This document shows, one piece after another, positions 10,832 through 37,844 of a stretch of 38,045 nt of DNA (positions are counted from its first letter, which is position 1; every line of letters begins with the position of its first letter). The stretch is from assembly GCF_002214585.1 (NCBI RefSeq), contig NZ_CP014863.1, positions 1 to 38,045 on the forward strand, read 5' to 3'. Source of the DNA: Thermococcus profundus. GTDB lineage: Archaea > Methanobacteriota_B > Thermococci > Thermococcales > Thermococcaceae. The notes beneath the pieces were generated by a model. That model had not been told where the DNA came from, made no database searches, and saw nothing but the letters and a program-made list of their open reading frames with translations. The translations under genes and the position numbers were made by a program.

Positions 10832-10837
10832 GTCTTT

Positions 10838-12643: not shown

Positions 12644-12648
12644 TTTAG

Positions 12649-13317: not shown

Positions 13318-13361
13318 TCCGGAGAAGTGGAAAAATTTAGCTTCTTCTCAAGTTTAACTTA

Positions 13362-13395
13362 ACTAACAACCACTAACTTTTTATGGGTTGTTAGT
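13362..13395. promoter_or_regulatory. Operator: perfect 10-bp inverted repeat over the AbiE promoter
   Basis: ACTAACAACC (13362-13371) and GGTTGTTAGT (13386-13395) are exact reverse complements separated by 14 bases. The spacer contains the TATA-like ACTTTTTATG of the AbiEi gene. AbiEi antitoxins are known to repress their own operon by binding inverted repeats at the promoter, so this is very likely the autoregulatory operator. Confidence 0.75.
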
Positions 13396-13399
13396 CAAA

Positions 13400-14032: not shown

Positions 14033-15038
14033 TTCACTCCTGATGGAAATCCGCAGGAACGAAAGGAGAGGTTTTGCAAGGTTCGTTTCCAGAAAAACAG
14101 GAATAAAATCCATTGATCTCGTCGAATGGGACTACATAATCCATACGATTTTGAAAGAACTTGAGAGGGATCCGCAGTTTAAGGAAAACTACATTTTCAA
14201 AGGTGGCACATGCCTTGTGAAGTGTCACCTCGGTTATTACCGCTTCAGCAGAGATCTGGATTTCGCATACCGGGATAGCGACAGGCTTAGAGAACTGAGC
14301 AGGAGTCAACTCAGGCAGTTCCTGAACGAGGAAACGGGAAGAATAGCAGAAATCCTGAAGTGCGTCGCGGAGGACTTAGGCCTTGAGTTTCAGTACTCGG
14401 GGCATAATGACTTCAATAACCATAGGTATTTTAGCTTCAGGATTGGTCCGGGCTGGTTCAGGGAGATAGTGTTGTACTCCCCACTCGGTGAGAAGATAAA
14501 AATAGAAGTAAACTACGCGGAAAAACTCGCGTTTAAGCCTAAAACATTGAAAGCGAACACATTATTATCCTGGAAGGGGATTACGCTCACTTCAAAGGAA
14601 TATGAAAAGTACATAGAATTCCTTGGCAACTATTATCCTCTTCGCATTCTTGCATACTCTGACAGGGAAATCCTCGTGGAGAAAGTCAGGGCACTCTTAA
14701 CCAGACGGGAGTTTAAGCTCAGGGACCTCTATGATTTGTACAAACTCAATCAACGTGGGCTTGAGATTTCAAAATACAAGAATAAAATAGTCGACAAGAT
14801 AAGAAACTACTTGGCCTTGAGTTCGTTAGCAAGGGAACATCTGGAAGTTGCTCTGAATTCAATTGAAGAAGGCACTTTCCTCACAGATATTGGCGCCGAG
14901 ATAGAGAGGGATAGTGGCCTGATTGTGGAACCTTTCAGCAAAGAAGAATTTTTGAAGTTTGTTGATGAGTTAAGAGAAGAATTAATGGAAATCTCAGGAG
15001 ATTTAAAACCTCTAAATGAGGTGAAAAACAATGGCTGA
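14022..15038 (+). CDS. abiEii: AbiEii-like nucleotidyltransferase toxin
   Basis: A 338-residue DNA polymerase beta-like nucleotidyltransferase. Active-site motifs are intact: FKGGTCL (59-65), RFSRDLDF (74-81), IKIEVNYAEKL (about 163) and LRDLYDLYKL (about 232). This is the AbiEii arrangement; such toxins transfer nucleotides to RNA (tRNA for studied members) or other targets and are restrained by AbiEi. The ATG at 14022 follows GGTGATC and overlaps the antitoxin gene. The end overlaps the start of the PLD-helicase gene by 8 bases, so toxin and helicase are translationally coupled. The intact motifs suggest an active toxin. Confidence 0.88.
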   Translation: MEGNSLLMEIRRNERRGFARFVSRKTGIKSIDLVEWDYIIHTILKELERDPQFKENYIFKGGTCLVKCHLGYYRFSRDLDFAYRDSDRLRELSRSQLRQFLNEETGRIAEILKCVAEDLGLEFQYSGHNDFNNHRYFSFRIGPGWFREIVLYSPLGEKIKIEVNYAEKLAFKPKTLKANTLLSWKGITLTSKEYEKYIEFLGNYYPLRILAYSDREILVEKVRALLTRREFKLRDLYDLYKLNQRGLEISKYKNKIVDKIRNYLALSSLAREHLEVALNSIEEGTFLTDIGAEIERDSGLIVEPFSKEEFLKFVDELREELMEISGDLKPLNEVKNNG

Positions 15039-18000: not shown

Positions 18001-18411
18001 CTATCTAACTTCAAAGAACTATTGAAGATATCCGAAAGCGAGCTGGAGTACACACGTAGGAGTGCCTCTAAAATACCTCCAAAGGTGAAACTCATCCTTG
18101 GAAAGATCGAGGAAAAAATGGCAAAAACGAAGAATCCCGGAGAGAAAGAGTATCTCAGCCAGCTTCATGATCTGGTGTACTGGGGCTACCTCAATAATGA
18201 GCCATTTAAGAACGCCCTGCTCAGGGCCAATGTAACGAAAAGAACATCGAGGGATACAGTGATAAACCTCTGCCAGGAACTTGTTGAGCGCTTTGGCATT
18301 GCAGCCCGCCGGAATGCCATCAAAGAGGAAATTAAAAAGCGGAAAACAGAGGGAGTCAAGCCGCACATAGTAGCTGGACTTCTCTTCGTTCCGGAGGAAG
18401 TAGAAGGTTAA
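15031..18411 (+). CDS. PLD-nuclease / SNF2-type helicase fusion
   Basis: An 1126-residue fusion. The N-terminus is a phospholipase D-like domain with its HKD-type half-site: HAKAYLFY (154-161) and GSSNFTLAGL (174-183), followed by NTELNAIV. Next comes an SF2/SNF2 motor: Walker A DVVGLGKSY (294-302), DEAHH (379-383), TATPYR (408-413), helicase C VLVFSEFEE (about 704), and motif VI QRIGRVDRIG (about 797-806). The C-terminal ~300 residues are helical. PLD and SNF2 proteins occur in anti-phage systems such as DISARM (DrmC, DrmD), there as separate subunits. Here the probable partner is the methyltransferase upstream: it would mark self DNA while this protein moves along and cuts unmarked DNA (inference). 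The ATG at 15031 follows GAGGTGA. Confidence 0.9.
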   Translation: MAESAIQLLDRHGLVDNQRVRLIDVLREVLTSGYYNQIDVAVGFLFISGMREIQDELETFFSKGGRMRIVIGNQTNRETFEQLSMVYHSLEALQKIKRREKSIETNLDQQSEDIEKNANFMEQSEENELFLRRLMEWIQSGKLEIKIYVKEFMHAKAYLFYPSETSMMRIGLVGSSNFTLAGLSGNTELNAIVQSTHFESLKEWYEGIWKEALPFNPKLLEIIGRSWAGQVPGNLPSPWEVFIRGLYELYKEILERDTGFLLRRLEDKLYDFQKDAVVRAISIVNKYGGVLISDVVGLGKSYIGLALLEHFSLLDLLQGRPKEVAVIAPPGLIRYWESLLRENNIPGKVFSSGLLPRRELSPEKYQEMEEYIKRVGTVLVDEAHHYSNPHTKSYKNLQELVAGKRLILLTATPYRKMYRDIINQIRLFLPERRHPFPITPQTWDELTKAIERGEIDPSYVLREVLIRRTRYDILKLYGGEGNCIKIKKNKKLCFPRRELSVLTYTISEVYPEDIYELLLNGISSMNYARFDLYNYVLPQFREAEPYKNLSSAGKPLKGLMRILYLKRLESSWYAMYQTLRRDLIKTKNFIKFVQNGLIPAGDEFDDILLGKINSNEEGLLSDEEVAEFIEKYKLKNKVTYKAGAFRVGKLLEDLEHDIKILESMEKPLKKLKEDLENHPEKDPKLRRLAEEIIKLRKEGKKVLVFSEFEETVQWIHKGLKEILPKDISQKMDYVSSNTKGIADKIKRFAPKSNGNLDIDESQELHILIATDVLSEGLNLQDANVVVNYDLHWTPIKLIQRIGRVDRIGTEHDEILVYNFFPEKKLEENLGLLQKVERRVQEFSRALGTDGKILQEEEEWNPSAIRAIYGTDEMEKIEEEFSSSLLSVTTFAEKLLRDYKEANEERFKEIIKRYSMRSIVKLPKGKESVAFFVCTNGVISQYFVYRLINGEWKPQNVPIEQLLKDTGLKENTRPYNSREAMKTYRLVANRALSNFKELLKISESELEYTRRSASKIPPKVKLILGKIEEKMAKTKNPGEKEYLSQLHDLVYWGYLNNEPFKNALLRANVTKRTSRDTVINLCQELVERFGIAARRNAIKEEIKKRKTEGVKPHIVAGLLFVPEEVEG

Positions 18412-19005: not shown

Positions 19006-19398
19006 ATGGCATTTGAGCTCGCATTAAGCAGCACCAAGCCTCTTGTGGATATGCTAGTCGCAGCGGTTAATTTATTAGGCGAGAATCCCCCTTCAAAGGT
19101 CGTGATACTTGAAGTTGCAGAACAAGGAGCTTCACTACAAATAACAGAGCCAAAGAGAGTTGCTTTTGTGAAGATTTACATTCCACGAGGACTATTTTTA
19201 AAATACAACATTGAGGATAAAGAACTCGTTGAAATTCCCTGGTATGATCTCGAAAGAGTTCTTAAGAGATCCAAGAGTAGTGATGTCCTTATCCTCAAAA
19301 AAGGGAATGAATCAGTTTTGGAAGTTACATTTGAGAGTGTAGCAATACGAACCTTCAGGCTCCCGTTACTCTCTCCTCAGAAGACCCTGAGTAGTTAG
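19006..19398 (+). CDS. Single-domain PCNA homologue (N-terminal half only)
   Basis: A 130-residue protein matching the first domain of Thermococcales PCNA: MAFELAL (PCNA MPFEVVF), EPKRVAFVKIYIP (DPSRVVLIDLNLP), FLKYNI (FSKYEV), LERVLKRSKSSDVLILKKG (LKKVLKRGKAKDTLILRKG) and IRTFRLPLL (TRTFRLPLI). PCNA is normally ~245 residues: two like domains joined by a connector loop that binds PIP-box partners. This product stops just where the connector would begin, followed by an opposite-strand gene, so domain 2 is absent. It has a good start (GGTGAGG before the ATG) and TATA box, so it looks like a real gene. It could assemble as a many-membered ring, pair with host PCNA or poison the host clamp; all three are inference. 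Alternatively it is a captured fragment. Confidence 0.86.
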   Translation: MAFELALSSTKPLVDMLVAAVNLLGENPPSKVVILEVAEQGASLQITEPKRVAFVKIYIPRGLFLKYNIEDKELVEIPWYDLERVLKRSKSSDVLILKKGNESVLEVTFESVAIRTFRLPLLSPQKTLSS

Positions 19399-23580: not shown

Positions 23581-24780
23581 TTAGGAGATTTCAGGTTTTT
23601 GATGAAGTTTCTGCTGAATAACTTGAGTGGTAATATTCTTGACGAGAAACGGATCCTCTTGTAACTGAAACATGTGGGTTCTCCCGTAGCGACCGCGACT
23701 TACAACGCGCCTGGTTAGTAAGCCCTCACTCTCCAATTTTGCACCAATGTAATTGATAACATGCTTCATAGTTCGATAATCCCAGTCAAGAGCATTCGCA
23801 ATATCGCGATATCTTAAGTAAAGCTCGCTACTGCTAACTTCTTTTTTCTCAATACTCATAGCAGCTAGAGCATGCAACAATAGAAGGGCATCAGTATCAA
23901 GATTCATGATGATCTGTTCAATAACGCTTCTCTCAACCCGATCAATTGCAGCCCAAATCGTTTTTTCAGTAATCTTGTCTTCGCCGAGGGTAGCTGCCTC
24001 GCGCAAAACCATAAAAGCCCATCTAAGATCCCGACTCTGCCGTCGAATGAGGGCCGCCAGTAGCCGTATGGCAGCATCATCCACAGCCCCAGGAACAAAA
24101 GCCTGCTCAACACGATCCTTAAGAATCGCATAAAGCTCTTCAGCATCGTAATTTCTGAAATAAACCAGAACCGGTGAAAGGCTTGAAAAAGTTGGTGCAG
24201 AGAGCCGTTCGAGTGTCACAGCATTGTTCGTGACAAAAAAATTCGAAACAGCCACCTTACCAGCGCGCTCGTTGATCCGCGTCAGTGAATAAATCAACCC
24301 ATCCAAATCCCCCTCTTTCTTCCGCATTTTATCAATCTCATCCATAATGAAAAGATATCGCATGTTAGAAGTCCTTAAAAACTCCAGAAGCTTATCATAA
24401 ACATCCGCCGTACTCATACCCCCATGGAGCCCAGACACTCCTAATTCTCTGGCAAGAGCGAGGAGAGCATTTCTGTGAGTGAGATCCTTAACACTTATGT
24501 AAATTGCCCGACTGTTGATGTTCTTCTCACGAGCGAGATCATTGTAGTCCTGCTCTAGTTGTCGAACTGCCACAGTCTTACCTACACCGGGCTCCCCATA
24601 AATGATGACATTAATATTAATCCCCTGGAAGAGGAAACTTGCAGCGTGCTTAGTAATGTCTTCAATCTCCTTCTCCCTAAACAAGAGACGTGGGGGTATG
24701 TAACTTTCAGATAACACCTCAGGATGAACCAGTAGTTGATGAGTAGATTCAAACTTTTGAAGGATATCTTTTATCCTCAT
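23581..24780 (-). CDS. Orc1/Cdc6-type replication initiator
   Basis: A 399-residue AAA+ ATPase with Walker A GEPGVGKT (62-69), Walker B FIMDEIDKM (144-152), sensor-1 FFVTNN (181-186), and a C-terminal winged helix (about 310-385; KHVINYIGAKLESEGLLTR, then GRYGRTHMF as wing). This is the archaeal Orc1/Cdc6 layout at typical length (~400). It binds origin recognition boxes and loads the MCM helicase. The ATG at 24780 follows GGGGG; a TTG two codons upstream is less likely. ORB-like repeats and an AT-rich stretch lie just upstream, and the first repeat sits between the TATA box and the ATG, suggesting that the protein controls its own gene. Confidence 0.88.
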   Translation of the reverse strand: MRIKDILQKFESTHQLLVHPEVLSESYIPPRLLFREKEIEDITKHAASFLFQGININVIIYGEPGVGKTVAVRQLEQDYNDLAREKNINSRAIYISVKDLTHRNALLALARELGVSGLHGGMSTADVYDKLLEFLRTSNMRYLFIMDEIDKMRKKEGDLDGLIYSLTRINERAGKVAVSNFFVTNNAVTLERLSAPTFSSLSPVLVYFRNYDAEELYAILKDRVEQAFVPGAVDDAAIRLLAALIRRQSRDLRWAFMVLREAATLGEDKITEKTIWAAIDRVERSVIEQIIMNLDTDALLLLHALAAMSIEKKEVSSSELYLRYRDIANALDWDYRTMKHVINYIGAKLESEGLLTRRVVSRGRYGRTHMFQLQEDPFLVKNITTQVIQQKLHQKPEIS

Positions 24781-24806
24781 GTCCAAGCCCCCATTTCTTA
24801 TTCAGG

Positions 24807-24829
24807 TTTCCACTTCCCAACAAGGGGGG
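24807..24829 (+). repeat. ORB-like box 1
   Basis: TTTCCACTTCCCAACAAGG followed by more G lies in the leader of the Orc1/Cdc6 gene. It combines a TTCCAC core with a G run, the layout of archaeal origin recognition boxes. The TATA-like CTTTTAAATAATG (minus strand, about 24829-24841) lies just behind it. Confidence 0.6.
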
Positions 24830-24866
24830 CATTATTTAAAAGCATTTCCCATAATCCTCCATATCC

Positions 24867-24886
24867 CCCACTTCCTAATAGAGGGG
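24867..24886 (+). repeat. ORB-like box 2
   Basis: CCCACTTCCTAATAGAGGGG is a direct-repeat relative of box 1, about 60 bases further on (CCACTTCC, AA, A, GGGG conserved). It runs into box 3. Confidence 0.55.
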
Positions 24887-24912
24887 TGGGGGGGTATGTT
24901 GCGAAGTGGAAC
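24881..24912 (-). repeat. ORB-like box 3, left arm of a long inverted repeat
   Basis: After a G-rich run comes TATGTTGCGAAGTGGAAC, an exact match to the reverse complement of box 4 at 25187. The arms match over about 30 bases; the G runs differ in length. Confidence 0.65.
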
Positions 24913-25186
24913 TGGGTATTGTATGTATTTGCAGAATTTTAGTTACTTTATGTTATTAAATTATTACAGGCCAAATAAACAGAAATCAACAATCCAGAGA
25001 AGATAACAAAAACAAAAATAAGAAAACAAGGAAGAAAAATAGTATTCAGCAATAAACATAGGCAATTTCAACGTAACAAGTCACATCAATTTTGGAGCTT
25101 TTCTAAGAATATTTTATGAAAAAATTTTCATAGAATATGGAAATGGTATGAGATGAGGAATGGGAATTGCTATTCCCCAAACATGG

Positions 25187-25217
25187 TTCCACTTCGCAAC
25201 ATACCCCCACCCTCTAA
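25187..25217 (+). repeat. ORB-like box 4, right arm of a long inverted repeat
   Basis: TTCCACTTCGCAACATACCC followed by more C and CTCTAAT is the mirror of box 3. The pair faces inward across the AT-rich region, like ORB pairs that position Orc1 on both sides of an unwinding element. Confidence 0.65.
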
Positions 25218-27277: not shown

Positions 27278-27769
27278 ATGGTAATGCGATTGGATCTCAG
27301 CGTCTTTTCCAGGGTCATTGCAGTCCTAAAGAATGCGGAAGTAGTCAAAGACGAGGGACTGGGGGGAGTCTATCCAGGCTGTCGGGGTTTTTATGATAAC
27401 AGTCGCACTGGTCGTGTGTGGTGCAGGTGCAATGAGGGAGAGATATGTCAGGTAAAGCTTGCTGAGGCCTTAGAGGTTACGCAGTCAACGATGAGTGAGT
27501 TTAGCGACACAATAGCCCTACTGGTTGAATACCACATTGTGGACGTTCGTATTGATCGTTCTGTACGCGCGAGGAATAAACCGAGGAAATACTACTCTTT
27601 AAACCCTGAGTGGCGGGAGAATTTTGTTGTCCTGCTTGATGATCTTGTGCGGGCTCAGGAACAGAGGTTGTTAGAGGATAAAGATGACTTAATGCGGAGT
27701 TTACTAGCTAAGAGGGACGTGGCAAGTTCTCGTGTTCGGGCTGGTTCTCATAAAAAGGCACACATGTGA
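27278..27769 (+). CDS. Winged-helix regulator with an N-terminal cysteine cluster
   Basis: A 163-residue protein, ATG at 27278 behind GAGGTGAG. An N-terminal insertion holds Cys35, Cys49, Cys51 and Cys57 (GVYPGCRGFY, VWCRCNEGEICQ), possibly a metal or redox site. The winged helix follows: VKLAEALEVTQSTMSEFSDT, then a wing with KPRKYYSLNP. The C-terminus is charged and helical. The cysteine cluster sits where a recognition-domain loop would be, so binding could be metal- or redox-controlled (inference). An inverted repeat overlapping its promoter suggests autoregulation, and the same 14-mer before the methyltransferase gene suggests a second target. Confidence 0.75.
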   Translation: MVMRLDLSVFSRVIAVLKNAEVVKDEGLGGVYPGCRGFYDNSRTGRVWCRCNEGEICQVKLAEALEVTQSTMSEFSDTIALLVEYHIVDVRIDRSVRARNKPRKYYSLNPEWRENFVVLLDDLVRAQEQRLLEDKDDLMRSLLAKRDVASSRVRAGSHKKAHM

Positions 27770-27783
27770 GGGTGATTTCCTTC

Positions 27784-28248
27784 TCACTTATCTTTGGCTT
27801 CGGTATTAACCGAAGTTAATGTGACCACCACGCGCTTCTTTTTGCGTTTTTTCATAATCTTTTTCTCCTTTTCGAGCTCTTTCAATGCAGCGTAAAGCTC
27901 GCGCCAGCTTGCACCAGTCATTTTCTTTAGTTCTGTCATTGATTTGACTTCTCCACGTGATAAGAGCTCTATGATAGTTTTTTTCAAATTCTCCAGGCTG
28001 GAGTTTTTTTCTTTATTTGATTCCATCAGGGAGAATACTGTAAGATTATGAACTTCTGTTTGAAGTTGTTGGAGAGTTTTTTTAACTTCTTGAACTTCTT
28101 GGATAGGTGCGGTCTTAGCTTCTAGGACTTTAATTTGTTCCTCAAGCTCGTTCAGACGTTGTTCCAAGTTCTCCACTTTGGAGAGTTCTTGTTTTAGCTG
28201 ATCGACTTCTTCTGAAAGGTTTAGGAGTCGGCGTAGTTTTGAGAACAT
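27784..28248 (-). CDS. Coiled-coil protein with a C-terminal winged helix
   Basis: A 154-residue protein starting at the ATG at 28248. Residues about 8-75 form a heptad-rich coiled coil (LNLSEEVDQLKQELSKVENL and onward), so it should dimerise. Residues about 85-140 form a helix-turn-helix (ELLSRGEVKSMTELKKMTGA, then WRELYAALKELEKEKKI) ending in a very basic KKRKKKR stretch. This resembles plasmid-encoded archaeal DNA-binding proteins used in regulation or partition; the family is not named. It converges on the HTH gene at 27278 with 14 bases between stops. Confidence 0.75.
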   Translation of the reverse strand: MFSKLRRLLNLSEEVDQLKQELSKVENLEQRLNELEEQIKVLEAKTAPIQEVQEVKKTLQQLQTEVHNLTVFSLMESNKEKNSSLENLKKTIIELLSRGEVKSMTELKKMTGASWRELYAALKELEKEKKIMKKRKKKRVVVTLTSVNTEAKDK

Positions 28249-28548
28249 TTTTTTGCCCCATTTGTTTTTAGTTGTGGATAGTTAAAAAAGTTATTTCAAT
28301 ATTGTTTTATCTATTTGGTCTTTGATCCTGAATCTGCTATGCGTTTTTTCTGCTCTTGAGTTAAGACTTGATGGGACTTACTATTTACATCACTAGCTAA
28401 TCTCTCTTAAAATCCTCATTAAACCAATCACTGAGATAAGAGCAAACTGTAAAAGCGGGGTACATAGAACTTAACTAAATGAAAAAGCTTAAAAACTGTG
28501 TATTCAGCTAGAAATACTGCATTAACAAGCTATTTCAACTCCGGATAA

Positions 28549-28562
28549 ACCCCTTTAAAATA
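28549..28562 (+). promoter_or_regulatory. TATA box ahead of the long hairpin
   Basis: CCCCTTTAAAATATGC is a good TATA element. A start about 26 bases downstream would fall at the first base of the hairpin (about 28583). Confidence 0.5.
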
Positions 28563-28582
28563 TGCTTGCTTGAAAAATATGG

Positions 28583-28717
28583 TGAACGTTGCAATTAGTG
28601 AGAAACAAATACGAATTTTGTCCAATTATTAGGTTGCAATAGAAAAAGCACTTAAATTTATTGCATTAAGGTAATCGGACAAAACCCGTATTTGTGTGTC
28701 TTTAAATGCAACGTTCA
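28583..28717 (+). ncRNA. Candidate structured RNA or hairpin element, 60-bp arms
   Basis: Arms 28583-28642 and 28658-28717 align without gaps; by hand I count 45 of 60 matching positions, with perfect blocks TGAACGTTGC, CAAATACG and TTTTGTCC. The loop is 15 bases. No protein frame fits. The placement right after a TATA box suggests a transcribed structured RNA; a replication or resolution hairpin, or a small inverted-repeat element, are alternatives. Orientation is uncertain. Confidence 0.5.
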
Positions 28718-29042
28718 AGGCAAAAAATCGTGACTGACACCATTCATCAAACCACAGTAACCGATTAAAAAACACTGGCTTGATTAGGAATTTAGTAATA
28801 AACCCCGAATAGCAGTCTTCCCCAAGAATGGGTGAGTGTGCTCTTCGATTTTTAAGCCAATGCTTGATAGTTTAGTTCAAGGGGGTGCGGGGGGTTTAAA
28901 AAGCGTGGGGGGTTTTAAAAGTCGGATTTATCATAACGGGGGTTCTGGTTGGAGTGGTGGTGTTTTCGGCGTTTCTGGGTGGGGGTTTCCCTTGTGGGTT
29001 AAGGTGGGGGTAGATAGTAAGCCCGCCGTGGTGTGCCTATCT

Positions 29043-29414
29043 TCATCCTTTGAGTGTGATTGGGTGGATGAAGTGTTGCACGTAATCGAGTTTGGTTTTG
29101 ACTTTGCCGCCGGTGATTTCGTTTGCTCTCTTTAAGTCGTGGGGGGTTATGCTGTTTATGGCTTCCGTCATTGTCTTGTAAACTTGCCTGTTAAGGGTGT
29201 CGTAGTACCCGGTGTCTTCGTCTACGTAGTGGATGTTGTCAATTAGGAGGGATTCTAGTCTTTCTTTGTTGGCTTCTTTTCTTTGGGCTGGGTCCTCGAG
29301 TTCTTTATCTGGGGAGTCGTGGAGGTTGAGTGCTTTGATTAGTTTTTCTGCGTGGTAGCGTGCTTTGCTTCTGGTTTTGTAAGCGTCTCCGTTGAGGATT
29401 ATCACGTAGGGCAT
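29043..29414 (-). CDS. Hypothetical protein, 123 residues
   Basis: The family is unknown. The ATG at 29414 is preferred to the TTG at 29420 because GGAGG lies 8 bases before the ATG but only about 3 before the TTG. It begins MPYVIILNGDAYKTRSKARY, followed by a charged helical protein rich in Lys, Glu and Asp, without membrane or metal motifs. The coding strand is strongly A/C-rich throughout, like the 5' halves of the longer unknown genes to the right. It lies divergently from the gene at 29743. Confidence 0.68.
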   Translation of the reverse strand: MPYVIILNGDAYKTRSKARYHAEKLIKALNLHDSPDKELEDPAQRKEANKERLESLLIDNIHYVDEDTGYYDTLNRQVYKTMTEAINSITPHDLKRANEITGGKVKTKLDYVQHFIHPITLKG

Positions 29415-29742
29415 TTTCAATTCCTCCTTATGTTCTTATTAGTTTGTGGGTTTTATTTATGTTTTTGTTTACGTTACCACCTGAGCCATGCGTGGACTTT
29501 TCTTGGTGATGGGTTGGTAGGAAGTAAAAGGCATTTCTTGTAAAAATAAATTTCTCGTTGGAAGAACAGCGTATTGGAGGGAGATAAAACTAGAAAATAC
29601 TGATTTGGGGTTTATTTAGATAGTTTGCCTATTTTTCTCCCTTTTCTATTGTGGAAAACTTTTTAAACTAAAGAAACATAAACAGTATTCGAAAGACAAA
29701 CAATGAGTGTCTTTGGCAAAAATTAACAGTGGGGTGGTTCTG
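29415..29742. other. Intergenic region between divergent unknown genes
   Basis: It carries the shared promoter block at 29661-29682 for the rightward gene. The leader of about 60 bases contains only an abortive ATG frame of 7 codons (29703). Nothing else is recognisable. Confidence 0.45.
29661..29682 (+). promoter_or_regulatory. Shared promoter block, copy 2
   Basis: TTTTAAAC followed by TAAAGAAACATAAA, matching copy 1 at every position. It lies about 60 bases before the ATG at 29743, the longest leader of the set. Confidence 0.7.
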
Positions 29743-30483
29743 ATGAGTGAGCATGACGGGAATGGAGAGTGGAAGCCGGGAGAGATGGATTATTACCACC
29801 GCTTTGCTGCTGGCTTCATAGCTTCAAAATCCCGCTGGTTTAACATGCAAGGAGCAATAACCTACGAGGACAATGGGGTCCTCAAAGAAAAGTACTTCAG
29901 GATAGTCGAAACCAAGGATGATGAAGGCAACATTACAATGAACATCATACTCGACGGCAAAGAGGCCAAGGTCACTTTGAAAGATGATGACGGCTGGATC
30001 ATACGGGAGGATGGTTCAAAGAAAGGGATTCCAGTGATTCACGTTAGGTTCCTGCGTAAGAATCCGTTCTCTAGTACTGTGGCCACGCTTTTTACAGAGC
30101 TTTCGAAGGATTATGAGGCTAGTGATGTTCCCTTAATTGTGGGGCAGTTGGGGGATGTTGATGCGGTTCGTTTGGCGCCTTTGTTGAGGGCCTTGCTTTT
30201 GGGGAAGGTTGAGAGGGTGCTTATGTGGACGGAGCAGCCTCCTGAGGCTAGGGCTGAGAATGTTGGTGGTTGGTACCAGGTGGATTTTGACAGTAAAAGA
30301 CTCTCGTTGGAAATGCTTGGTAAGTTAGTGGTTGGGGATTGGGTTGTGCGTCAAGTAGTTATCCAGGGTAGGATGTCACTTTACAATCCGGGAAGCCGTC
30401 TCTCCTCAAGACTACCTCAAACAATGGGAATTGGGCTTCATTTGAATTCTCACGAGATGATTAATGGTCTTTTATCTGATTAA
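29743..30483 (+). CDS. Hypothetical protein of the shared-promoter group, 246 residues
   Basis: The family is unknown. The ATG at 29743 is chosen because GGGGTGGT lies just before it; the GTG at 29707 gives a 12-residue longer form without such a site. The N-terminus is acidic with aromatic residues (EWKPGEMDYYHRF), then strands (FRIVETKDDEGNITMNIILD) and a helical C-terminal half (LAPLLRALLLGKVERVLMW). The coding strand changes from A/C-rich to G/T-rich at about 30110. Its stop lies 19 bases before the next start, so the two probably form an operon under the block at 29661. Confidence 0.72.
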   Translation: MSEHDGNGEWKPGEMDYYHRFAAGFIASKSRWFNMQGAITYEDNGVLKEKYFRIVETKDDEGNITMNIILDGKEAKVTLKDDDGWIIREDGSKKGIPVIHVRFLRKNPFSSTVATLFTELSKDYEASDVPLIVGQLGDVDAVRLAPLLRALLLGKVERVLMWTEQPPEARAENVGGWYQVDFDSKRLSLEMLGKLVVGDWVVRQVVIQGRMSLYNPGSRLSSRLPQTMGIGLHLNSHEMINGLLSD

Positions 30484-30502
30484 GTGTATGGGGTGTATGA
30501 AA

Positions 30503-31510
30503 ATGAACCCGTTCCTTTACATGGACCCTGAATCTGAAGGGAATATTAAGAAAGCCTTTGCAAATCCTGACGAGAACCAAATCTCCCTCATAAGGGAAGG
30601 ACTCAAAGAAGGAATCTACGACAAAGAATTCGGCCTCGGATACGGTTTTATGACCCACAAAAACATTCCAATCCACTTAACGTACAAAGACAAAGAGGAG
30701 GACCTCCTCGTCAAATGGATGATAACCCTCCCATACCATGCAATACCATCACAATCCATAATAGGCGAAGTCGAATTCGAAGTCAGCCCATACACTTACG
30801 GAAACAAGGTTCTAGAAGCAATTGCCCTAGGAGCGATTCTCCCCAACTTCCACACATGGGAGTTCCGCCTCAGGGCTGGGAAACTAACCGACTATTACAC
30901 GATCCCTGAAACCAACACTGAGGCCGCGGAGGTGTACCCCTTGCTGGTCCTTGACAGTAATGCTGGAGTAATGTACCGTCTCCCGTACCTCATGTCAGAG
31001 GTCATCAAGCTGGATAACATGCATTATCATGCGAAGAATGACCCATACTTTAGTCTCGATGAGGCATTCTCTATGGTGTTGCAGGCTTTTCAGAATGAGT
31101 ATCCTGTGGTTTCCAGGTTGAAGGACGATGCTAAGGCTACTGTGTTGTCTGAGTTGCTTTACACGTTTGCTATGCAGATGGCGGGGGCTGTGCTGGCTGG
31201 GTTGGTTGAGCCGGGCCCGTTCGTGAAGACTGGGTACAATGCTGAGGTTTTTGAGGACCAGTTCGTTAGGGATGTGATTGATTGGTTCTGGGGTTTGTAC
31301 AGGTATCCGTACGTGGATTGGGAGAAGCCGCCTGTTAAGGAGGTTGATGATTTGTTTGCTGATGTTGCGATTGCGGGTTTTGACACGCCGGAGACGTTTA
31401 AGAATACGGTGCTGTTTAATTTGGACGTTGGTGCTGATCAGGGGATTGTGCTTAGGGGCGATTGGGAATTCGTCAGAAAATACATCCCTGATTTTGAGAT
31501 CAAAAGATGA
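30503..31510 (+). CDS. Hypothetical protein, 335 residues, second gene of the pair
   Basis: The family is unknown. The ATG at 30503 (MNPFLYMDPES) is preferred: GGGGTG ends 7 bases before it, whereas the ATG at 30497 almost touches that site and the frame opening at 30464 runs inside the previous gene. The product is soluble mixed alpha/beta, with YPLLVLDSNAGVMYRLPYLM (about 150) resembling the strand-Pro-helix motif of its neighbours. The change in coding-strand composition is clearest here: codons end mostly in C or A before about 30950 and mostly in G or T after about 31050. A T-rich run follows the stop. Confidence 0.75.
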   Translation: MNPFLYMDPESEGNIKKAFANPDENQISLIREGLKEGIYDKEFGLGYGFMTHKNIPIHLTYKDKEEDLLVKWMITLPYHAIPSQSIIGEVEFEVSPYTYGNKVLEAIALGAILPNFHTWEFRLRAGKLTDYYTIPETNTEAAEVYPLLVLDSNAGVMYRLPYLMSEVIKLDNMHYHAKNDPYFSLDEAFSMVLQAFQNEYPVVSRLKDDAKATVLSELLYTFAMQMAGAVLAGLVEPGPFVKTGYNAEVFEDQFVRDVIDWFWGLYRYPYVDWEKPPVKEVDDLFADVAIAGFDTPETFKNTVLFNLDVGADQGIVLRGDWEFVRKYIPDFEIKR

Positions 31511-31535
31511 GTTTTTTCTGTTTTTAATCTTTGAT
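31511..31535 (+). terminator. T-rich terminator after the two-gene unit
   Basis: Directly after the stop, T runs (GTTTTTTCTGTTTTTAATC) form the usual archaeal termination signal. Confidence 0.5.
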
Positions 31536-31604
31536 AAGATTCGCGTGAAAAAGGTGACATAGGTGTGATCCCTCAATAAGCAGAAATTAAAGAGTGAGGT
31601 TATC

Positions 31605-32255
31605 ATGAATGGAATTCGATTCGTAACAATGTTCTTATTGTTCGCCCCGGTTGAGTACCTAAGCCTGTACCTTCTATCTAAAACCACATGGGGAGTTGAA
31701 ATAATCTTGATAAGCTGGGTTAGTGCTGTTGTGTTTGGAAGTGTTTTCTATTGGGCTGCTAAAAATAAGAGAAGGTACTCTGTAAAAGAAATGGCTGAAA
31801 AAATACTTGAATTCACACCGGAAAGTGCAAAGGGCACTAAACACATTAGTGGTGTAGAAGTAGTGGTCGTAAAACCCATTGATGATAACGGGTTTGCATG
31901 GGCCTCTGAAACAATCCCTCTATTAAAGGATAAACCCATACGAATAATTATTCTCCCAAGTGCAAAACTGGGTGCTTTTTTTGATGGCATAGACGGAATA
32001 TTCTTAGTGCCCTCAACAAACGATTATGAAACCTTCAGAGAGTTGATGGATGAACTCTTGATCAATGCTTTAATCAATCCTGCAAAGATTCTTGTTGTTC
32101 AGATTTCTTCAATGTTCCTTAGCTTGCTTATTGGATACTTGCTGCTAAAAAAGGGAGTTGTGACGAATCTAATACTACTAGCGGCCTTGACTGGTGTTAT
32201 TAGTGCTTGGGTTTTAATGACATTTTATCCGATAATAACACCAATTAAACGATAG
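31605..32255 (+). CDS. Membrane protein with a soluble central domain
   Basis: A 216-residue protein, ATG at 31605 behind GTGAGGT. Two hydrophobic spans at the N-terminus (about 5-25 and 30-50) and two at the C-terminus (about 163-185 and 188-210) flank a soluble domain of ~110 residues (EVVVVKPIDDNGFAWASETI, IRIIILPSAKLGAFFDG). The layout recalls HtpX/M48 membrane proteases, but there is no HExxH, so if related it is inactive; I do not assert the relation. It is the only clear membrane protein in the window and could place the unknown system at the envelope. Confidence 0.72.
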   Translation: MNGIRFVTMFLLFAPVEYLSLYLLSKTTWGVEIILISWVSAVVFGSVFYWAAKNKRRYSVKEMAEKILEFTPESAKGTKHISGVEVVVVKPIDDNGFAWASETIPLLKDKPIRIIILPSAKLGAFFDGIDGIFLVPSTNDYETFRELMDELLINALINPAKILVVQISSMFLSLLIGYLLLKKGVVTNLILLAALTGVISAWVLMTFYPIITPIKR

Positions 32256-32286
32256 CTTCCCAAATCATCTTGTTGGTGGTCTTCAA

Positions 32287-32303
32287 TGTTGGTTTTTTAC
32301 TTT
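32287..32303 (+). terminator. T-rich terminator after the membrane protein gene
   Basis: GGTTTTTTACTTTTTG lies between the convergent genes ending at 32255 and 32321. It probably ends the rightward transcript. Confidence 0.4.
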
Positions 32304-32320
32304 TTGAAAGCTCTCATTCT

Positions 32321-32896
32321 TCAAGGGCTCCTGTAAAAAGAATACTTTGCATACTTTTCGTTAATCTCAACACTCTGAACCATCCACGCATTTTTCTTCT
32401 CAGGATCCTTTACCTTAGTAATCTCCGAGGGAATCTCCACATCAAACTCCTTGTTAAACACATCAGCCAGAATCTTCAAAAGGTCCTCAAGCATGATCGC
32501 GCTAGAAGCATAAACCTCGAGACCCGCAATGGTCTCCTCACCCTGGTTCACAGTGAGGTGCGCGTAAATGTAATGACCATTGAAATAACCCCCGTAAAGG
32601 TAATGCGCGTCAATCTTACCCTCACCCAAGTAAGCAGCAACACTGTGCCCCTTAATAGTGGGGTGGTACTCTTCAATAATAGGAATATTATCAGTAGCAT
32701 ACTCTTGCTTGAATATTGTCATTGCAATGGCAGCGTTGTTGTTGAAGGTCACAATGAAACCGTCTCCTACATCAGTCATAGTGTATTTGAAAGTCTTTGT
32801 CCTGGCTAGGTGCTCAAGGTTTTGACTAACCCTCTCCTTCACCCAGGCCACTTCGGTCGGGGTTTTCCCGGGGCCAACCCATATCATTCCCGCCAT
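32321..32896 (-). CDS. Hypothetical protein of the shared-promoter group, 191 residues
   Basis: The family is unknown. The ATG at 32896 follows GGAGGGAT; the shared promoter block ends 22 bases upstream. The product begins MAGMIWVGPGKTPTEV and is rich in Tyr, His and Gly in the middle (AHYLYGGYFNGHYIYAHLTV), suggesting a beta-rich core, with a helix near IMLEDLLKILADVFNKEF. There is no membrane span. The coding strand is mainly G/T-rich. It is convergent with the membrane protein gene. Confidence 0.72.
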   Translation of the reverse strand: MAGMIWVGPGKTPTEVAWVKERVSQNLEHLARTKTFKYTMTDVGDGFIVTFNNNAAIAMTIFKQEYATDNIPIIEEYHPTIKGHSVAAYLGEGKIDAHYLYGGYFNGHYIYAHLTVNQGEETIAGLEVYASSAIMLEDLLKILADVFNKEFDVEIPSEITKVKDPEKKNAWMVQSVEINEKYAKYSFYRSP

Positions 32897-32918
32897 CTTC
32901 CTATCCCTCCATTATTAG

Positions 32919-32939
32919 TTATGTTTCTTTGGTTTAAAA
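32919..32939 (-). promoter_or_regulatory. Shared promoter block, copy 3
   Basis: On the minus strand TTTTAAAC then CAAAGAAACATAA, with C for T at one position. It drives the gene starting at 32896. Confidence 0.7.
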
Positions 32940-32999
32940 GATTTGTGGATTTTCAAGAATTAGTACCAAACCAAATCCGGCCTCTTAACCTTAAAAATA

Positions 33000-33060
33000 A
33001 GAAAAAACAAGAAATGTTTTGTTTTTTACTTTTTAGGGACTCTTCTTTCTTGTTTTTTCT
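33000..33060 (-). terminator. Perfect 15-bp inverted repeat with T runs, probable terminator
   Basis: AGAAAAAACAAGAAA (33000-33014) and TTTCTTGTTTTTTCT (33046-33060) are exact mirrors around 31 bases. Each arm gives a T run on one strand. It follows the leftward gene that ends at 33180 and precedes the promoter of the gene at 32896, so it could end the former transcript. Confidence 0.5.
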
Positions 33061-33179
33061 ATTTAGTTCTATCTCCCCTTAGCAGAATTATCACGGATTC
33101 TTTCTTGACTTCGGCCTTGGTGTAATTCATTGTATTTAGGTGGAATTTCAAAAAGAAATTAGGGAGTGCAGCAGTTAAA

Positions 33180-34241
33180 TTAAACCATAACTACCGGCAA
33201 GTTCTTGAATTCAGGGTTAACCTGCGAGAGAATCCCAACCAAACGACGAGGGATGATAATCTTATCCTGGCTCCCAGTCTCCTTCCACTCGACGTACAAC
33301 GTCACGTACATCTCCCCGTTAAGGGAGAAGAGCTCAGCATGCTTCCACTTAAGATTCCCCTCAAAATACTCAACCTTGCCCATATTCTCACGTGCTAAGT
33401 ATCCCTTCAAATGTGCTAGATCAATTATGGACACGCCAGTCGCGTCCTTCGTAACACTGGAGAAAGAAGTAACCACCTCGTCAACCTCATAATTCAATAT
33501 TAACTCGTCCCCCTTCGGGAAAGGCTTAACATCCTTTGCTTTTATTGAAACCTTGCCATAAATGTTTATGCTCTTTTCCTCGGTTTCCACGTAGATCTTG
33601 TAAATGGTAACCTTAGGGAAGGGTTTTTCCACGATTAACCGTTCGATTATGGGTTTGTTTTTCTTTGGAGAGTATCCTGGGAGTACTTTTGGAGTTATCC
33701 AATCGTAGTTGAGGCGGCTCCACTCAGCTATCGCGGGTTTTTTCTTGATTTTATTTGGGACGATGAATGTCCCTGTGGAATCATCTACGAAGTAGAAGCG
33801 CTTGTTTTCTATTAAGTGTGCGAAGTATTGCTTGGCAAATTCTTTGGTCCAGGCTCCGGCGTTGATCATGCTTAGGACGGTGCGGGCTTGTTTTTCGGTG
33901 AGGAAGTTGAGGCCCTTGACTTGGGGGCACTGGTTACAGTTTTTGATTAGGAGTCCTGCTGTTGCTACGGCGAATAATTCCTCGTATGGTGAGTGGGTGC
34001 GGTAGATTCTTATTTCAGTGGGGGTGTCGTAGGTGTTCGTTTCGGTGAGGGGCAATTGGAGGAGGGCTTTTGCTGGCCCTTCTTTGCTGAATGTTTTGAT
34101 GGTTTCGGGGCAGAATAAGATCTCCTTGGATGCGTTAGGATAAATCAGTTCAATTTTAGGGAGGTACACAGCCTCCTTTTTGATTTTTACAAAGTTATCC
34201 AGAGTCCTGATCTTGTGATCAAAAGTTTTCACCGTTACCAT
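33180..34241 (-). CDS. Hypothetical protein of the shared-promoter group, 353 residues
   Basis: The family is unknown. The ATG at 34241 lies 20 bases below the promoter block; GTGATGG is a possible ribosome binding site. There are several strand-Pro-helix units: KEAVYLPKIELIYPN with EILFCPETIKTF near the N-terminus, and QDKIIIPRRLVGIL at the C-terminus. A region with NCNQCPQ (about 100) has two cysteines only. It is mostly beta-rich and lysine-rich. The coding strand is A/C-rich in the 5' half and G/T-rich in the 3' half, switching near 33590. Confidence 0.75.
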   Translation of the reverse strand: MVTVKTFDHKIRTLDNFVKIKKEAVYLPKIELIYPNASKEILFCPETIKTFSKEGPAKALLQLPLTETNTYDTPTEIRIYRTHSPYEELFAVATAGLLIKNCNQCPQVKGLNFLTEKQARTVLSMINAGAWTKEFAKQYFAHLIENKRFYFVDDSTGTFIVPNKIKKKPAIAEWSRLNYDWITPKVLPGYSPKKNKPIIERLIVEKPFPKVTIYKIYVETEEKSINIYGKVSIKAKDVKPFPKGDELILNYEVDEVVTSFSSVTKDATGVSIIDLAHLKGYLARENMGKVEYFEGNLKWKHAELFSLNGEMYVTLYVEWKETGSQDKIIIPRRLVGILSQVNPEFKNLPVVMV

Positions 34242-34260
34242 GTGCCATCACAATATTGCT

Positions 34261-34282
34261 TTTATGTTCCTTTAGTTTAAAT
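34261..34282 (-). promoter_or_regulatory. Shared promoter block, copy 4
   Basis: On the minus strand ATTTAAAC then TAAAGGAACATAAA, one base (G for A) different from copy 1 in the conserved tail. It drives the gene starting at 34241. Confidence 0.7.
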
Positions 34283-34350
34283 AGATTTTTCTTAGGATAG
34301 CAAGATCTAACATCTCAGCTCTGAATGAGAATTTTGAAGAAAAACTGCAA

Positions 34351-35424
34351 TTAACTCAAAGCCTTGTGGAGAATAAACTTGACTTCTTCCTTTGACAAAC
34401 CCACGTTGTTCTCGTTCGTGAGAAGGTCAAAAGACGCCCTCAATCCCTCAACAGGGTGCAAGCCAAGCTTCACAAGCTCCCACGTCGGAGTCAAGATGAT
34501 AGTACTCGCAGTCACAGTACTAAGGCGTTTCTCAACCTCCCTCCTCAAAAACTCAAGATCCGCATCACTCAAACTACTTGGGTCAATACCCCCAAAATCC
34601 CTCTTCAAACCCCTACCAATCAACTCCAAATTACTCATCCCGTCCTGAACCACCTTCTCAAAGACCGCCGCCACGCTGCCCACAGTCACATTGTCCAGCG
34701 GGAAGAACCCCCACCGCGAAGCAACAGGTTGAACCCTCTTCCTCAAGAACTCCTCTGCCTCCCCAGATGATAGTTTAGTAGCGTAACTCACGTAACCAAC
34801 ATGGAAAAGCGTCATGCTTCCATCTGGATGCCTGATGAAGTAGTCAGCGTTGTCTCCCGCCATGTGAAGTCCAGCATAAAAATCCCACTTCGGGAGCGGC
34901 CTTGGTAAAACGGGTACTGGTTTAATCTTCCCTACTTTGATGTTTTTTATTGCCTCGGAGATTGCATTAAAGTAGGTTTCATCCTCTTTGGATCTCGTGT
35001 AAGTGCGGACTTTGTTTTCAAAGCCGTGGTATCTTGCGAGGTCCATGAAAAGTGCTGGTAATTGGGCCCCAACTGCTATTCCTGCCGTGCCGTGTTTGGA
35101 GTCGAGGATTTTCTTTATTTCAATGGGCTTTTCTTCGAGGTTCGGTATGGTTTCAATGTGGGGCTTGAAGATGTTGTAAACGCTGTTGTTGGCTACACCA
35201 TTCAGGAGTTCTAGCATGATTTTGTATTCTCTCACTATTTGGGGGGTGACTTCGGCTATTTTGGTTTCTCCTTTGTTCGTGAAGCCTGTGAGTTGGGTGG
35301 GGGCGAGTTTTAGGACTTGGGGGTAGGGTGTGTAAGAGTACACCCAGGCGCCTTCGGTGGTTATGATGTACGCCATTATTGTGTGTGTTCCGAGTTTTGT
35401 GTATCCTATTAACGGGTTTGGCAT
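34351..35424 (-). CDS. Hypothetical protein of the shared-promoter group, 357 residues
   Basis: The family is unknown. The ATG at 35424 (MPNPLIGYTKLG) is chosen since GGGGATCA lies just before it; the ATG at 35439 is five codons upstream and overlaps that site. The N-terminal third is beta-rich with many aromatics (AYIITTEGAWVYSYTPYPQV); the rest is helical, with a Pro-rich stretch (PVPVLPRPLPKWDFYAG) near residue 195. The coding strand is A/C-rich then G/T-rich, changing near 34950. There is no membrane span or metal site. Confidence 0.75.
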   Translation of the reverse strand: MPNPLIGYTKLGTHTIMAYIITTEGAWVYSYTPYPQVLKLAPTQLTGFTNKGETKIAEVTPQIVREYKIMLELLNGVANNSVYNIFKPHIETIPNLEEKPIEIKKILDSKHGTAGIAVGAQLPALFMDLARYHGFENKVRTYTRSKEDETYFNAISEAIKNIKVGKIKPVPVLPRPLPKWDFYAGLHMAGDNADYFIRHPDGSMTLFHVGYVSYATKLSSGEAEEFLRKRVQPVASRWGFFPLDNVTVGSVAAVFEKVVQDGMSNLELIGRGLKRDFGGIDPSSLSDADLEFLRREVEKRLSTVTASTIILTPTWELVKLGLHPVEGLRASFDLLTNENNVGLSKEEVKFILHKALS

Positions 35425-35440
35425 TGTGATCCCCAACATA

Positions 35441-35462
35441 TTTATGTTTCTTTAGTTTAAAA
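35441..35462 (-). promoter_or_regulatory. Shared promoter block, copy 5
   Basis: On the minus strand TTTTAAAC then TAAAGAAACATAAA, identical to copies 1 and 2. It is 17 bases above the ATG at 35424. Confidence 0.72.
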
Positions 35463-35603
35463 GATTTGTTAAAAATGCCTGTTCATTTTTATTAAAGGTA
35501 GTGTGAAAGTCTTCTGTGGTCTAATTATGTTTTTCCGACTTTCCCCGCCTTAGACGGTGCGGTTTTTGGAGGGAAAATGTGATTGTGGAAAATTTCACAA
35601 AAT

Positions 35604-35622
35604 TTTTAAACCAAATAAACAG
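35604..35622 (+). promoter_or_regulatory. Shared promoter block, divergent copy 6
   Basis: TTTTAAACCAAATAAACAG differs from the consensus in the tail (AAATAAACAG for AAAGAAACAT). It lies 33 bases before the ATG at 35655, so it probably is that gene's promoter. Confidence 0.55.
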
Positions 35623-35654
35623 AGAATAGTGGAGATGTAGTTGGGGGTTGTACT

Positions 35655-36572
35655 ATGATAATCCGGATACTACCATATGTTAAAAGTTATGATTACAATA
35701 TTGCCAAGATTCACTTTAATTACTCCGAGAACTACTTAATGCCGAAACTTTTTCTTCCTAAATCATTTGTTGAATCCCTGTCATTTCCGCTCGTTGAGTT
35801 GTGGATAACTGACTACACGACTCTTCACATTAAATCTATTAGCCCTAAGGACGAAATTGCTCCAATTGGCCTTGTGGTTAATATCGAAAAAAGGTACATT
35901 AGCGCATCATCACTCGTTAACTTTTACATTCATCAGTTGGAGATTTCGCCTAAAACAATCATATCCCAACTCAGAAACGGAGAATTTCCAAAGCGTATGA
36001 CCCTTCCTCTCAGAGACAATGATAGCGGGGATAGTGAGCTCCTTGTTAGTACAGAACCATTACTCAGGGAACTCTCCAAAATTCGGCAGGGGAAACTCTT
36101 TATTAAGAACTCCCTGATATTCCCCTCACTAAACATTAAAGAGAATACTTGTCTTTATTTCTACAAAAGAAAAAATAAGCGGGTACTTTTCAAAACATTA
36201 CTGCCATGGTTGAAACCTGGCACTCAAATTATTTATCTCTTAGTGGATAAATCCTCAAATTATCTAATAATAGCAAAACGGCCTCTAAAATATCTACAAG
36301 GGTTAGGGGAGCTTGAGCCGATTGGTTCTTTAGAGTCTAAGGTGCCTGAAGGGACCATAAACTTTCTAAAAGACTGCTTACGGGATCTACCAATCCTAAT
36401 TAAGCAGCTTGATTGCGAAGGTATCCCTAAAAACCCTAGAAAGATCAACGAGATGATACTAAGAAAAATAAAAGAAAACAAAAAGGTCTGCATGCCTCTT
36501 GTTGAGGCTCAGAGAGAGTACATTGTTGTAGACATGACTCCACTAAAGAAGTTCCTAAAGGAGGTTTGTTAA
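35655..36572 (+). CDS. Hypothetical protein of the shared-promoter group, 305 residues
   Basis: The family is unknown. The ATG at 35655 follows GGGGGTTGT. It holds an apparent internal repeat: KLFLPKSFVESL near the N-terminus, RMTLPLRDNDSGDSELLV followed by STEPLLREL in the middle, and KVCMPLVEAQREYIVVDM followed by TPLKKFL at the end. The last unit matches the neighbour's PARIPLAEVP and IRVDMSNLVDRL. A lysine-rich central part (FYKRKNKRVLFKTL) may bind nucleic acid. The stop is one base before the next ATG, so the two genes form an operon. Confidence 0.75.
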   Translation: MIIRILPYVKSYDYNIAKIHFNYSENYLMPKLFLPKSFVESLSFPLVELWITDYTTLHIKSISPKDEIAPIGLVVNIEKRYISASSLVNFYIHQLEISPKTIISQLRNGEFPKRMTLPLRDNDSGDSELLVSTEPLLRELSKIRQGKLFIKNSLIFPSLNIKENTCLYFYKRKNKRVLFKTLLPWLKPGTQIIYLLVDKSSNYLIIAKRPLKYLQGLGELEPIGSLESKVPEGTINFLKDCLRDLPILIKQLDCEGIPKNPRKINEMILRKIKENKKVCMPLVEAQREYIVVDMTPLKKFLKEVC

Positions 36573-36573
36573 T

Positions 36574-37302
36574 ATGGAAGAGTTTGGACCTTTCCCCGCC
36601 TGGGTCAGGGGGATAATATTTAGAAACCGCACCAGCAAAAAAACAACCGAAAAAGTGAGAATCTTTATGGAAATGCCCCTCATTGCGATCAACCTACTCG
36701 AAGACAAAAACACTAACCCTCACAAGGTAATAGAAGAATTCATCAAAGAATACTCCCACCCCAGAGGAAAAAGGCTCAAGGACCTCTCAAAACTAAAACT
36801 CCCCTACGTCAAAGAATTCTATGACTTCAAAACAAAAACTGCAATATTCGTCCCTGTATGGGCTGAAAAACAACCATCAGACGCCTTTAAGATTAGGCCG
36901 CCCCTCAGAAAAGTCAAGATAACCATCAACAATACTCCAGTTACCGTCCCGCTAGTGATGATTGACATAACGAATATGACAAAATCCCTCTTGACTTTCC
37001 ACCTTGATTTCCTACCCTCGGGCGAAGTACTAAAATGGGTTTTGCTTCAGATTATGTCTTCGATGATTACGGATGAGGAGGAGCCTCCTGCGAGGATACC
37101 TTTGGCGGAGGTTCCACTGGTGGTTTGTCCCGAGGAAAATAAGATTCGTGTGGATATGTCTAATTTGGTGGATCGCCTTGGGGAGATTTTGTCTCCTGAG
37201 AATACTGAGGGGACGCCGATTGATGAGTACAGGGTTTCCATTGAGGACCTGTTGAAAGATGAAGCACTAATTCAGCAACTCAAAAAAGAGGCAGGCCTTT
37301 AG
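36574..37302 (+). CDS. Hypothetical protein, 242 residues, second gene of the pair
   Basis: The family is unknown. The ATG at 36574 follows AAAGGAGG inside the end of the previous gene. Segments VKITINNTPVTVPLVMID and PPARIPLAEVPLVVCPEE with IRVDMSNLVDRLGEIL resemble the repeated unit of the preceding protein, so the pair may be distant relatives or partners. The coding strand is strongly A/C-rich up to about 36980 and G/T-rich after about 37020. There is no membrane or metal motif. Confidence 0.74.
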   Translation: MEEFGPFPAWVRGIIFRNRTSKKTTEKVRIFMEMPLIAINLLEDKNTNPHKVIEEFIKEYSHPRGKRLKDLSKLKLPYVKEFYDFKTKTAIFVPVWAEKQPSDAFKIRPPLRKVKITINNTPVTVPLVMIDITNMTKSLLTFHLDFLPSGEVLKWVLLQIMSSMITDEEEPPARIPLAEVPLVVCPEENKIRVDMSNLVDRLGEILSPENTEGTPIDEYRVSIEDLLKDEALIQQLKKEAGL

Positions 37303-37364
37303 CTATTATTTTTAATAATGATTTTGTAATATTCCTACATTTTCTACATTAAAAACTAGATATT

Positions 37365-37811
37365 TCAGATTGTTTTATTGGCCACACTGCTTTTTATGGC
37401 CTTAACAACTAATTTCATTATCGTATTAAGTGGATCTTTCGCCTCCTCCACACTGGAAACATAATGCACGCCCGTATTGTTAACTACCCCCGAGAACACA
37501 GCCCTCTCATCCCGAACAGAATAAACTATGTACAACCACACTGGAACAGGGATCGTAGTGTATTTCCCTTCCACACTCACACTAACCTTTTGAGTGCCCG
37601 TAAGCAAGTACTTCTCAAAACCCCTCTCTTCCCCAATAGAGTACAAGTAAAAATTGGACGGGTTAATTATCACACCATCTATTGAGTACACCTTTGTAAT
37701 TACCGTGTTTGATACTCCGTCAGAGGGCTTCAATACTGGTGAAAAGTGGCCATTAGCCATAAGGTTCTTCGCCGGCTTGTGAGGAGAGACGTGTTTTGTA
37801 ACGAACTTCAT
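37365..37811 (-). CDS. Hypothetical protein of the shared-promoter group, 148 residues
   Basis: The family is unknown. The ATG at 37811 (MKFVTKHVSP) is preferred over the ATG at 37829 because GGGTGAT lies just before it. The product is beta-rich (NTVITKVYSIDGVIINPSNF, YTTIPVPVWLYIVYSV), ending in a helix (LNTIMKLVVKAIKSSV). There is no clear signal peptide. The coding strand is G/T-rich. The shared promoter block lies 34 bases upstream. It converges on the gene ending at 37302. Confidence 0.72.
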   Translation of the reverse strand: MKFVTKHVSPHKPAKNLMANGHFSPVLKPSDGVSNTVITKVYSIDGVIINPSNFYLYSIGEERGFEKYLLTGTQKVSVSVEGKYTTIPVPVWLYIVYSVRDERAVFSGVVNNTGVHYVSSVEEAKDPLNTIMKLVVKAIKSSVANKTI

Positions 37812-37844
37812 CCTAATCACCCTTTCCATTTTTCCTATTATTGT

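Follow-up and report, generated by a model that had tools for sequence, protein, structure and literature searches.

What role, if any, a long inverted repeat may have in a part of an archaeal plasmid where no gene lies is the question raised by a hairpin in Thermococcus profundus. The window, i.e. the whole stretch of DNA analysed, is a complete replicon of 38,045 bp found beside a chromosome of 2,005,098 bp (two contigs, 2.04 Mb genome). The hairpin occupies positions 28583..28717, with no strand assigned, and its arms (28583-28642 and 28658-28717) pair at 45 of 60 positions without any gap around a 15-base loop, exactly as the initial annotation had described this 135-base structure. It was the top ungapped inverted repeat of the window with a score of 31, the next distinct repeat reaching 19. 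In 100 dinucleotide-shuffled versions of the window the mean was 13.7 and the maximum 18, and no more than 15 was reached in ten samples of 20 kb taken from the host chromosome. The surrounding region, previously put at 790 bp, was indeed free of genes and extends over 794 bp (28249..29042, no strand), bounded by minus-strand genes at 27784-28248 and 29043-29420. In the same stretch GGGGGGTTTWAAAAG occurs twice at 28889-28921, in direct orientation and 18 bp apart, and exact copies were found nowhere else in the plasmid.

The minimum free energy of the hairpin, folded as RNA, was -52.6 kcal/mol on the plus strand (z -9.2) and -53.8 kcal/mol on the minus strand (z -11.5). Since this copy folds equally on both strands, the window alone gives no ground for RNA over DNA. 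The gapless, scattered mismatches had been read earlier as the mark of a maintained RNA fold or of an old DNA hairpin still under selection. However, when perfect palindromes with 15 randomly mutated positions were simulated, 20-56% of the runs were at least as stable as the window hairpin. Since palindromes decayed at random positions fold equally well, gaplessness and scattered mismatches are by themselves no proof of maintenance, and this part of the earlier argument had to be qualified; that the hairpin is old and has been kept was borne out by the comparison with its relatives. Maintenance of the window hairpin is visible only through such comparison.

No copy of the hairpin was detected by blastn in the host genome or in 150 relatives, and neither an exact-end pattern nor blastn gave identical copies in up to 151 genomes, viral contigs or genome contigs. 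Distant blastn searches of plasmid and phage collections yielded no match to the window region and, for the relatives tried, nothing except a 31-base chance match. When a covariance model (R1) was made from this single hairpin of the window, read on both strands, it matched three hairpins of 134-135 bp, at G019:C38:82-215 (E 5e-9), G013:C2:79524-79658 (E 6e-8) and G078:C12:6727-6861 (E 5e-5). The model made from the window and these three loci (R2) added a fifth member, G069:C22:91920-92056 (E 1.5e-6). The model of all five (R3) detected no further member at E<=1 in 94 family genomes or 115 phylum genomes, and none in plasmid pTBMP1 or in 200 kb of the host chromosome; since the filters of the genome scans were strict, weak members were possibly missed. 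The carriers are five of the 94 Thermococcaceae genomes and none of the other 110 phylum genomes searched, each with a single copy of about 135 bp; from end to end, the five members measure 134-137 bp.

Since a hairpin-aware model is biased to hairpins, homology was also checked without structure. In a search of 465 kb, a sequence-only profile of the window copy recovered G013 (2e-6) and G019 (4e-4), and leave-one-out profiles of this kind re-found every member (window 3e-10, G013 2e-17, G019 6e-7, and the weakest two, G069 3e-4 and G078 4e-3). No description of this element was met in the open-licence papers searched, and the hairpins apparently form a small, undescribed family in plasmids and integrated elements of heat-loving archaea.

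When the five members were aligned by MAFFT, RNAalifold gave 53 pairs with compensatory changes in 33 of them; thus covariation in related elements, proposed by the initial annotation as a check, could be observed. Paired cells amounted to 83%, against 38-50% with the partners slid, and the observed covariation was reached by none of 500 shuffles. The outer arms diverge strongly between members and have retained pairing inside each. The invariant columns of the plain alignment include TGTCC and GGAC, mirrored in the stem; in the window they belong to the core TTGTCC at 28618..28623 (plus strand) and to its mirrored copy at 28677..28682 (minus strand, GGACAA as read on plus). The loop is variable across the five hairpins and the conserved letters lie in the stem. 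What the comparison establishes is that the mobile DNA of Thermococcaceae carries a specific family of hairpins, present in single copy, whose symmetry has been kept and whose core is fixed. The covariation means that the symmetry was kept, and it does not discriminate between RNA, DNA or template switching as the keeper.

The hairpins of the window, G013, G069 and G078 sit in gene-poor stretches of 0.8-1.4 kb in mobile elements; that of G019 lies at a contig end, so the element carrying it is unreadable. A tRNA-Gln gene adjoins the G013 hairpin, together with integrase and AbiE genes. Integrase-like relatives lie to one side of the G069 stretch and a tRNA-Gln gene to the other; it also has two genes that share 62-63% identity with genes of the window, and its hairpin is located about 480 bp ahead of an element-borne MCM helicase ORF. 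Adjoining this hairpin and ahead of the MCM ORF, an array of TGTCCCA repeats in both orientations was noted (L074 16380-16841), an origin-like layout; such a TGTCC array is special to G069. In both the window and G078 the GC-skew minimum precedes the hairpin by 2.4-2.5 kb, and an origin-type setting (replication or partition genes, or a skew minimum, beside the hairpin) was not seen in the G013 remnant. In G013 and G078 an outer, second inverted repeat is co-centred with the hairpin within 0 and 2 bp; the window and G069 lack such a repeat. The outer repeats lie 166-305 bp out, at L038 6421-6456 and 7134-7169 in G078 and at L036 ~14318-14357 with its mirror in G013. No gene common to all carrying elements was found, and the proteins that were scanned included none recognisable as a partition ATPase.

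A candidate partner is the winged-helix gene at 27278..27769 (plus strand), which is linked to a hairpin or half hairpin in three elements. Its product is 39% identical to that of G078:C12 4709-5326, has a further relative in G061, and its predicted fold resembles PadR/MarR-type regulators with weak scores. The order winged helix, one small gene, hairpin is common to the window, G078 and, with a half hairpin, G061. The gene adjoining the gene-free stretch of the window (27784..28248, minus strand) encodes a coiled-coil plus winged-helix protein with a 31% relative on the G078 element. In G061, where model R2 had found no hairpin, the sequence-only profile detected a single left arm (L071 18834-18891, E 7e-6), whose sequence closely resembles that of the G078 arm. 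It lies 1.1 kb beyond the winged-helix gene, with one small gene intervening and an integrase-like ORF nearby; from about the palindrome centre onward the right arm is lost. This half hairpin adds a sixth genome at the place predicted by gene order; as it turned up in a control set, it checks an idea formed earlier and is not the outcome of a planned test. No linked winged-helix gene could be shown in G013 or G069, and G075:C2, from another genome of the family, has such a gene at the pTBMP1 position. A strict tie of hairpin and gene was rejected: since pTBMP1 and G078:C8 carry the gene without the family hairpin, the link is not obligatory.

The window also encodes a Cdc6/Orc1-like initiator (23581..24786, minus strand), 59% identical to that of pTBMP1. 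Beside it, at 24808..25211 (no strand) and 3.4 kb from the hairpin, for which they serve as context only, lie ORB-like repeats of CCACTTC type with G-strings (24810, 24868, 24899 on the minus strand, and 25189). Since the initiator is related at this level and the DNA upstream of cdc6, with its ORB-like repeats, is conserved between the two plasmids, the window represents a further pTBMP1-type plasmid, distantly related to the first. The repeats near cdc6, which are of plasmid type, are likely a Cdc6-dependent origin, a likelier main origin than the hairpin. The hairpin itself was discarded as the Cdc6/ORB origin, ORB-like repeats being present at 24.8-25.2 kb and none at the hairpin, and the skew minimum lying elsewhere. 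No relative was obtained when the genome contigs were scanned with the Cdc6 alignment. Elsewhere in the plasmid a defence-like block (7865-18411) comprises a type IIG-like restriction-methylase, an AbiEi/AbiEii pair and a PLD plus helicase protein, and a UvrD-type helicase is encoded at 4865-6763. The ORF 2391-4868 appeared primase-like by eye, without database support; a short protein (19006-19398) matched the PCNA N-terminal domain just at the curated cut-off, as a sliding-clamp-like fragment; and the ORF 328-1488 gave a sub-threshold Cas7/DevR match (E 0.0015; structure model pLDDT 38). Some 8 kb of ORFs (29707-37829) could not be assigned to any Pfam or PHROG family at the thresholds applied, and the ORF 30464-31510 among them had no relatives in 120 related genomes.

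Were the keeper of the symmetry RNA, one transcribed strand would fold into a stem of about 60 bp and act as a plasmid regulator or a protein-binding RNA. The strong covariation is in line with this, and on the chosen strands G-U mismatches exceed A-C mismatches by 33:12 (orientation-free p 0.027), with better folding on one strand in G078, G013, G019 and G069. However, this strand preference is weak; the mismatch bias comes mostly from G078 (13:1) and could be due to strand composition, and the window copy has no G-U/A-C strand bias. Also in line with RNA, the AT-rich TATA (ACCCCTTTAAAATA) reported at 28549-28562 is present there, at a plausible distance from the hairpin. The transcript deduced from it, beginning at the first base of the stem, fared less well: with a BRE/TATA matrix trained on 92 upstream regions of the host chromosome, the site (28544..28559, plus strand) scored 5.7 bits against a median of 8.6 for gene promoters of the same chromosome, and the four relatives had no promoter-like site at a matching distance on either strand. 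Since the promoter is mediocre and not conserved, such a transcript is unsupported. The variable loop, the near-perfect mirror symmetry with few bulges, which is unusual for RNA, and the lack of any Rfam family match in the window at the curated threshold also speak against a structured non-coding RNA, which we consider less likely than a DNA site, although it is the main rival. A bacterial-type terminator was looked for as well and none was found.

The symmetry of an old palindrome could also result from mutation alone, since hairpins and compensatory changes are known to arise and persist through template switching (PMC8794818), which would copy changes from arm to arm, giving covariation without function. 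The simulated decay, which the window copy does not surpass in stability, and the loss of a whole arm in G061 fit such an origin. However, template switching homogenises arms and does not fix a core across lineages; in all five copies, divergent as they are, TGTCC and further letters of the stem stay unchanged at fixed places, the narrow range of lengths holds for all of them, and a functionless palindrome would be expected to vanish at such divergence, which makes this explanation improbable. Still further from the data is a non-autonomous, MITE-like palindrome inserted once per element. Its appearance of a terminal inverted repeat, its presence in differing mobile elements and the outer repeats of two members would agree with mobility, but each of the five genomes holds a single copy, and blastn, pattern and model searches gave no near-identical copies; the mobile inverted repeat with identical copies, which the initial annotation had kept in mind, was thus not seen. 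Moreover, no target-site duplication was visible when the 80-base flanks of all five copies were inspected by eye, nor at the outer-repeat ends of G013 and G078, the ends are not conserved among members, and the gene order is kept in three elements. Thus a mobile palindrome of this kind is highly improbable.

The reading that we prefer, at a probability of about 45%, is that the hairpin is an origin-proximal, cis-acting DNA dyad, which would serve the replication or maintenance of Thermococcales plasmids and integrated elements. It rests on the specific single-copy family, the covarying arms, the fixed core, the gene-free context and the linkage to the winged-helix gene in three elements. Further points in its favour are the homology without structure, the location of the conservation in the stem, the DNA-like symmetry of the co-centred outer repeats, the MCM gene and TGTCCC array of G069, the GC-skew position, the three-element gene order and the lack of a conserved promoter. 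Against it count the separate Cdc6/ORB origin 3.4 kb away, the lack of a gene common to all elements, the non-obligatory winged-helix link, the lack of outer repeats in the window and G069, the restriction of the array to G069 and the failure to recognise a partition ATPase. A DNA-binding protein, for which the linked winged-helix protein would be the best candidate, might bind the dyad in duplex form or as a hairpin, extruded or single-stranded, and the dyad could take part in replication initiation, re-priming or partition. In the window plasmid it would act beside the separate Cdc6/ORB origin and would not replace it. A wider proposal, which seems unlikely at present, is a new class of archaeal plasmid maintenance system, where the mirror-symmetric TGTCC-core hairpin of ~135 bp, sometimes nested in a co-centred dyad of 0.5-0.75 kb, would form with a linked winged-helix protein an origin or centromere without recognised Rep or ParA.

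To our knowledge, little is understood of the replication and persistence of the larger Thermococcales plasmids beyond their initiator genes. A conserved single-copy element that recurs in plasmids and integrated elements otherwise unlike one another offers a definite object for deletion tests, and the hairpin model offers a means of recognising such mobile elements in genomes. The family is also a test case of whether compensatory change in long palindromes arises from function or from template switching alone.

The plasmid pTBMP1 of Thermococcus barophilus MP is the type of its own plasmid family (PMC6972569). The window resembles it in the initiator and the ORB-like DNA at cdc6, in AbiE and methylase genes and in a winged-helix relative (29%); unlike the window, pTBMP1 lacks the family hairpin and has an unrelated, shorter inverted repeat (14574-14670) by its winged-helix gene. 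In Rep-Arvir replicons, e.g. the virus SNJ2, a hairpin origin of about 20 nt directly follows the rep gene, and no equally conserved element was reported outside Halobacteria (PMC13107129); no Rep-Arvir gene was recognised in the present elements, where none was specifically searched for. The predicted origin regions of pTN2- and pEXT9a-like Thermococcus plasmids share with the hairpin region a large gene-free region near a GC-skew minimum, and a protein kept in every one of these plasmids has the coiled-coil plus winged-helix layout of the 27784..28248 product, a likeness of layout only; however, no conserved long hairpin was described for them and their replication genes differ from those of the window (PMC3543421).

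Viral-contig matches to TTTGTCCG..CGGACAAA and TATTGTCC..GGACAATA were considered as members and rejected, their R3 scores being 36 bits or lower. Those inspected were repeat arrays close to DnaB, primase or VapE-like genes of bacterial phages; they were set aside because of the low scores, their nature as bacterial-phage arrays and their pre-selection by motif. On three phage contigs (L085 89-214, L149 6141-6255 and L247 8381-8458) there are TTGTCCG or GGGACAATA repeats that fold back; they lie within ORFs or next to them, with DnaB, primase or VapE-like genes close by. These are probably phage origin repeats, outside the hairpin family.
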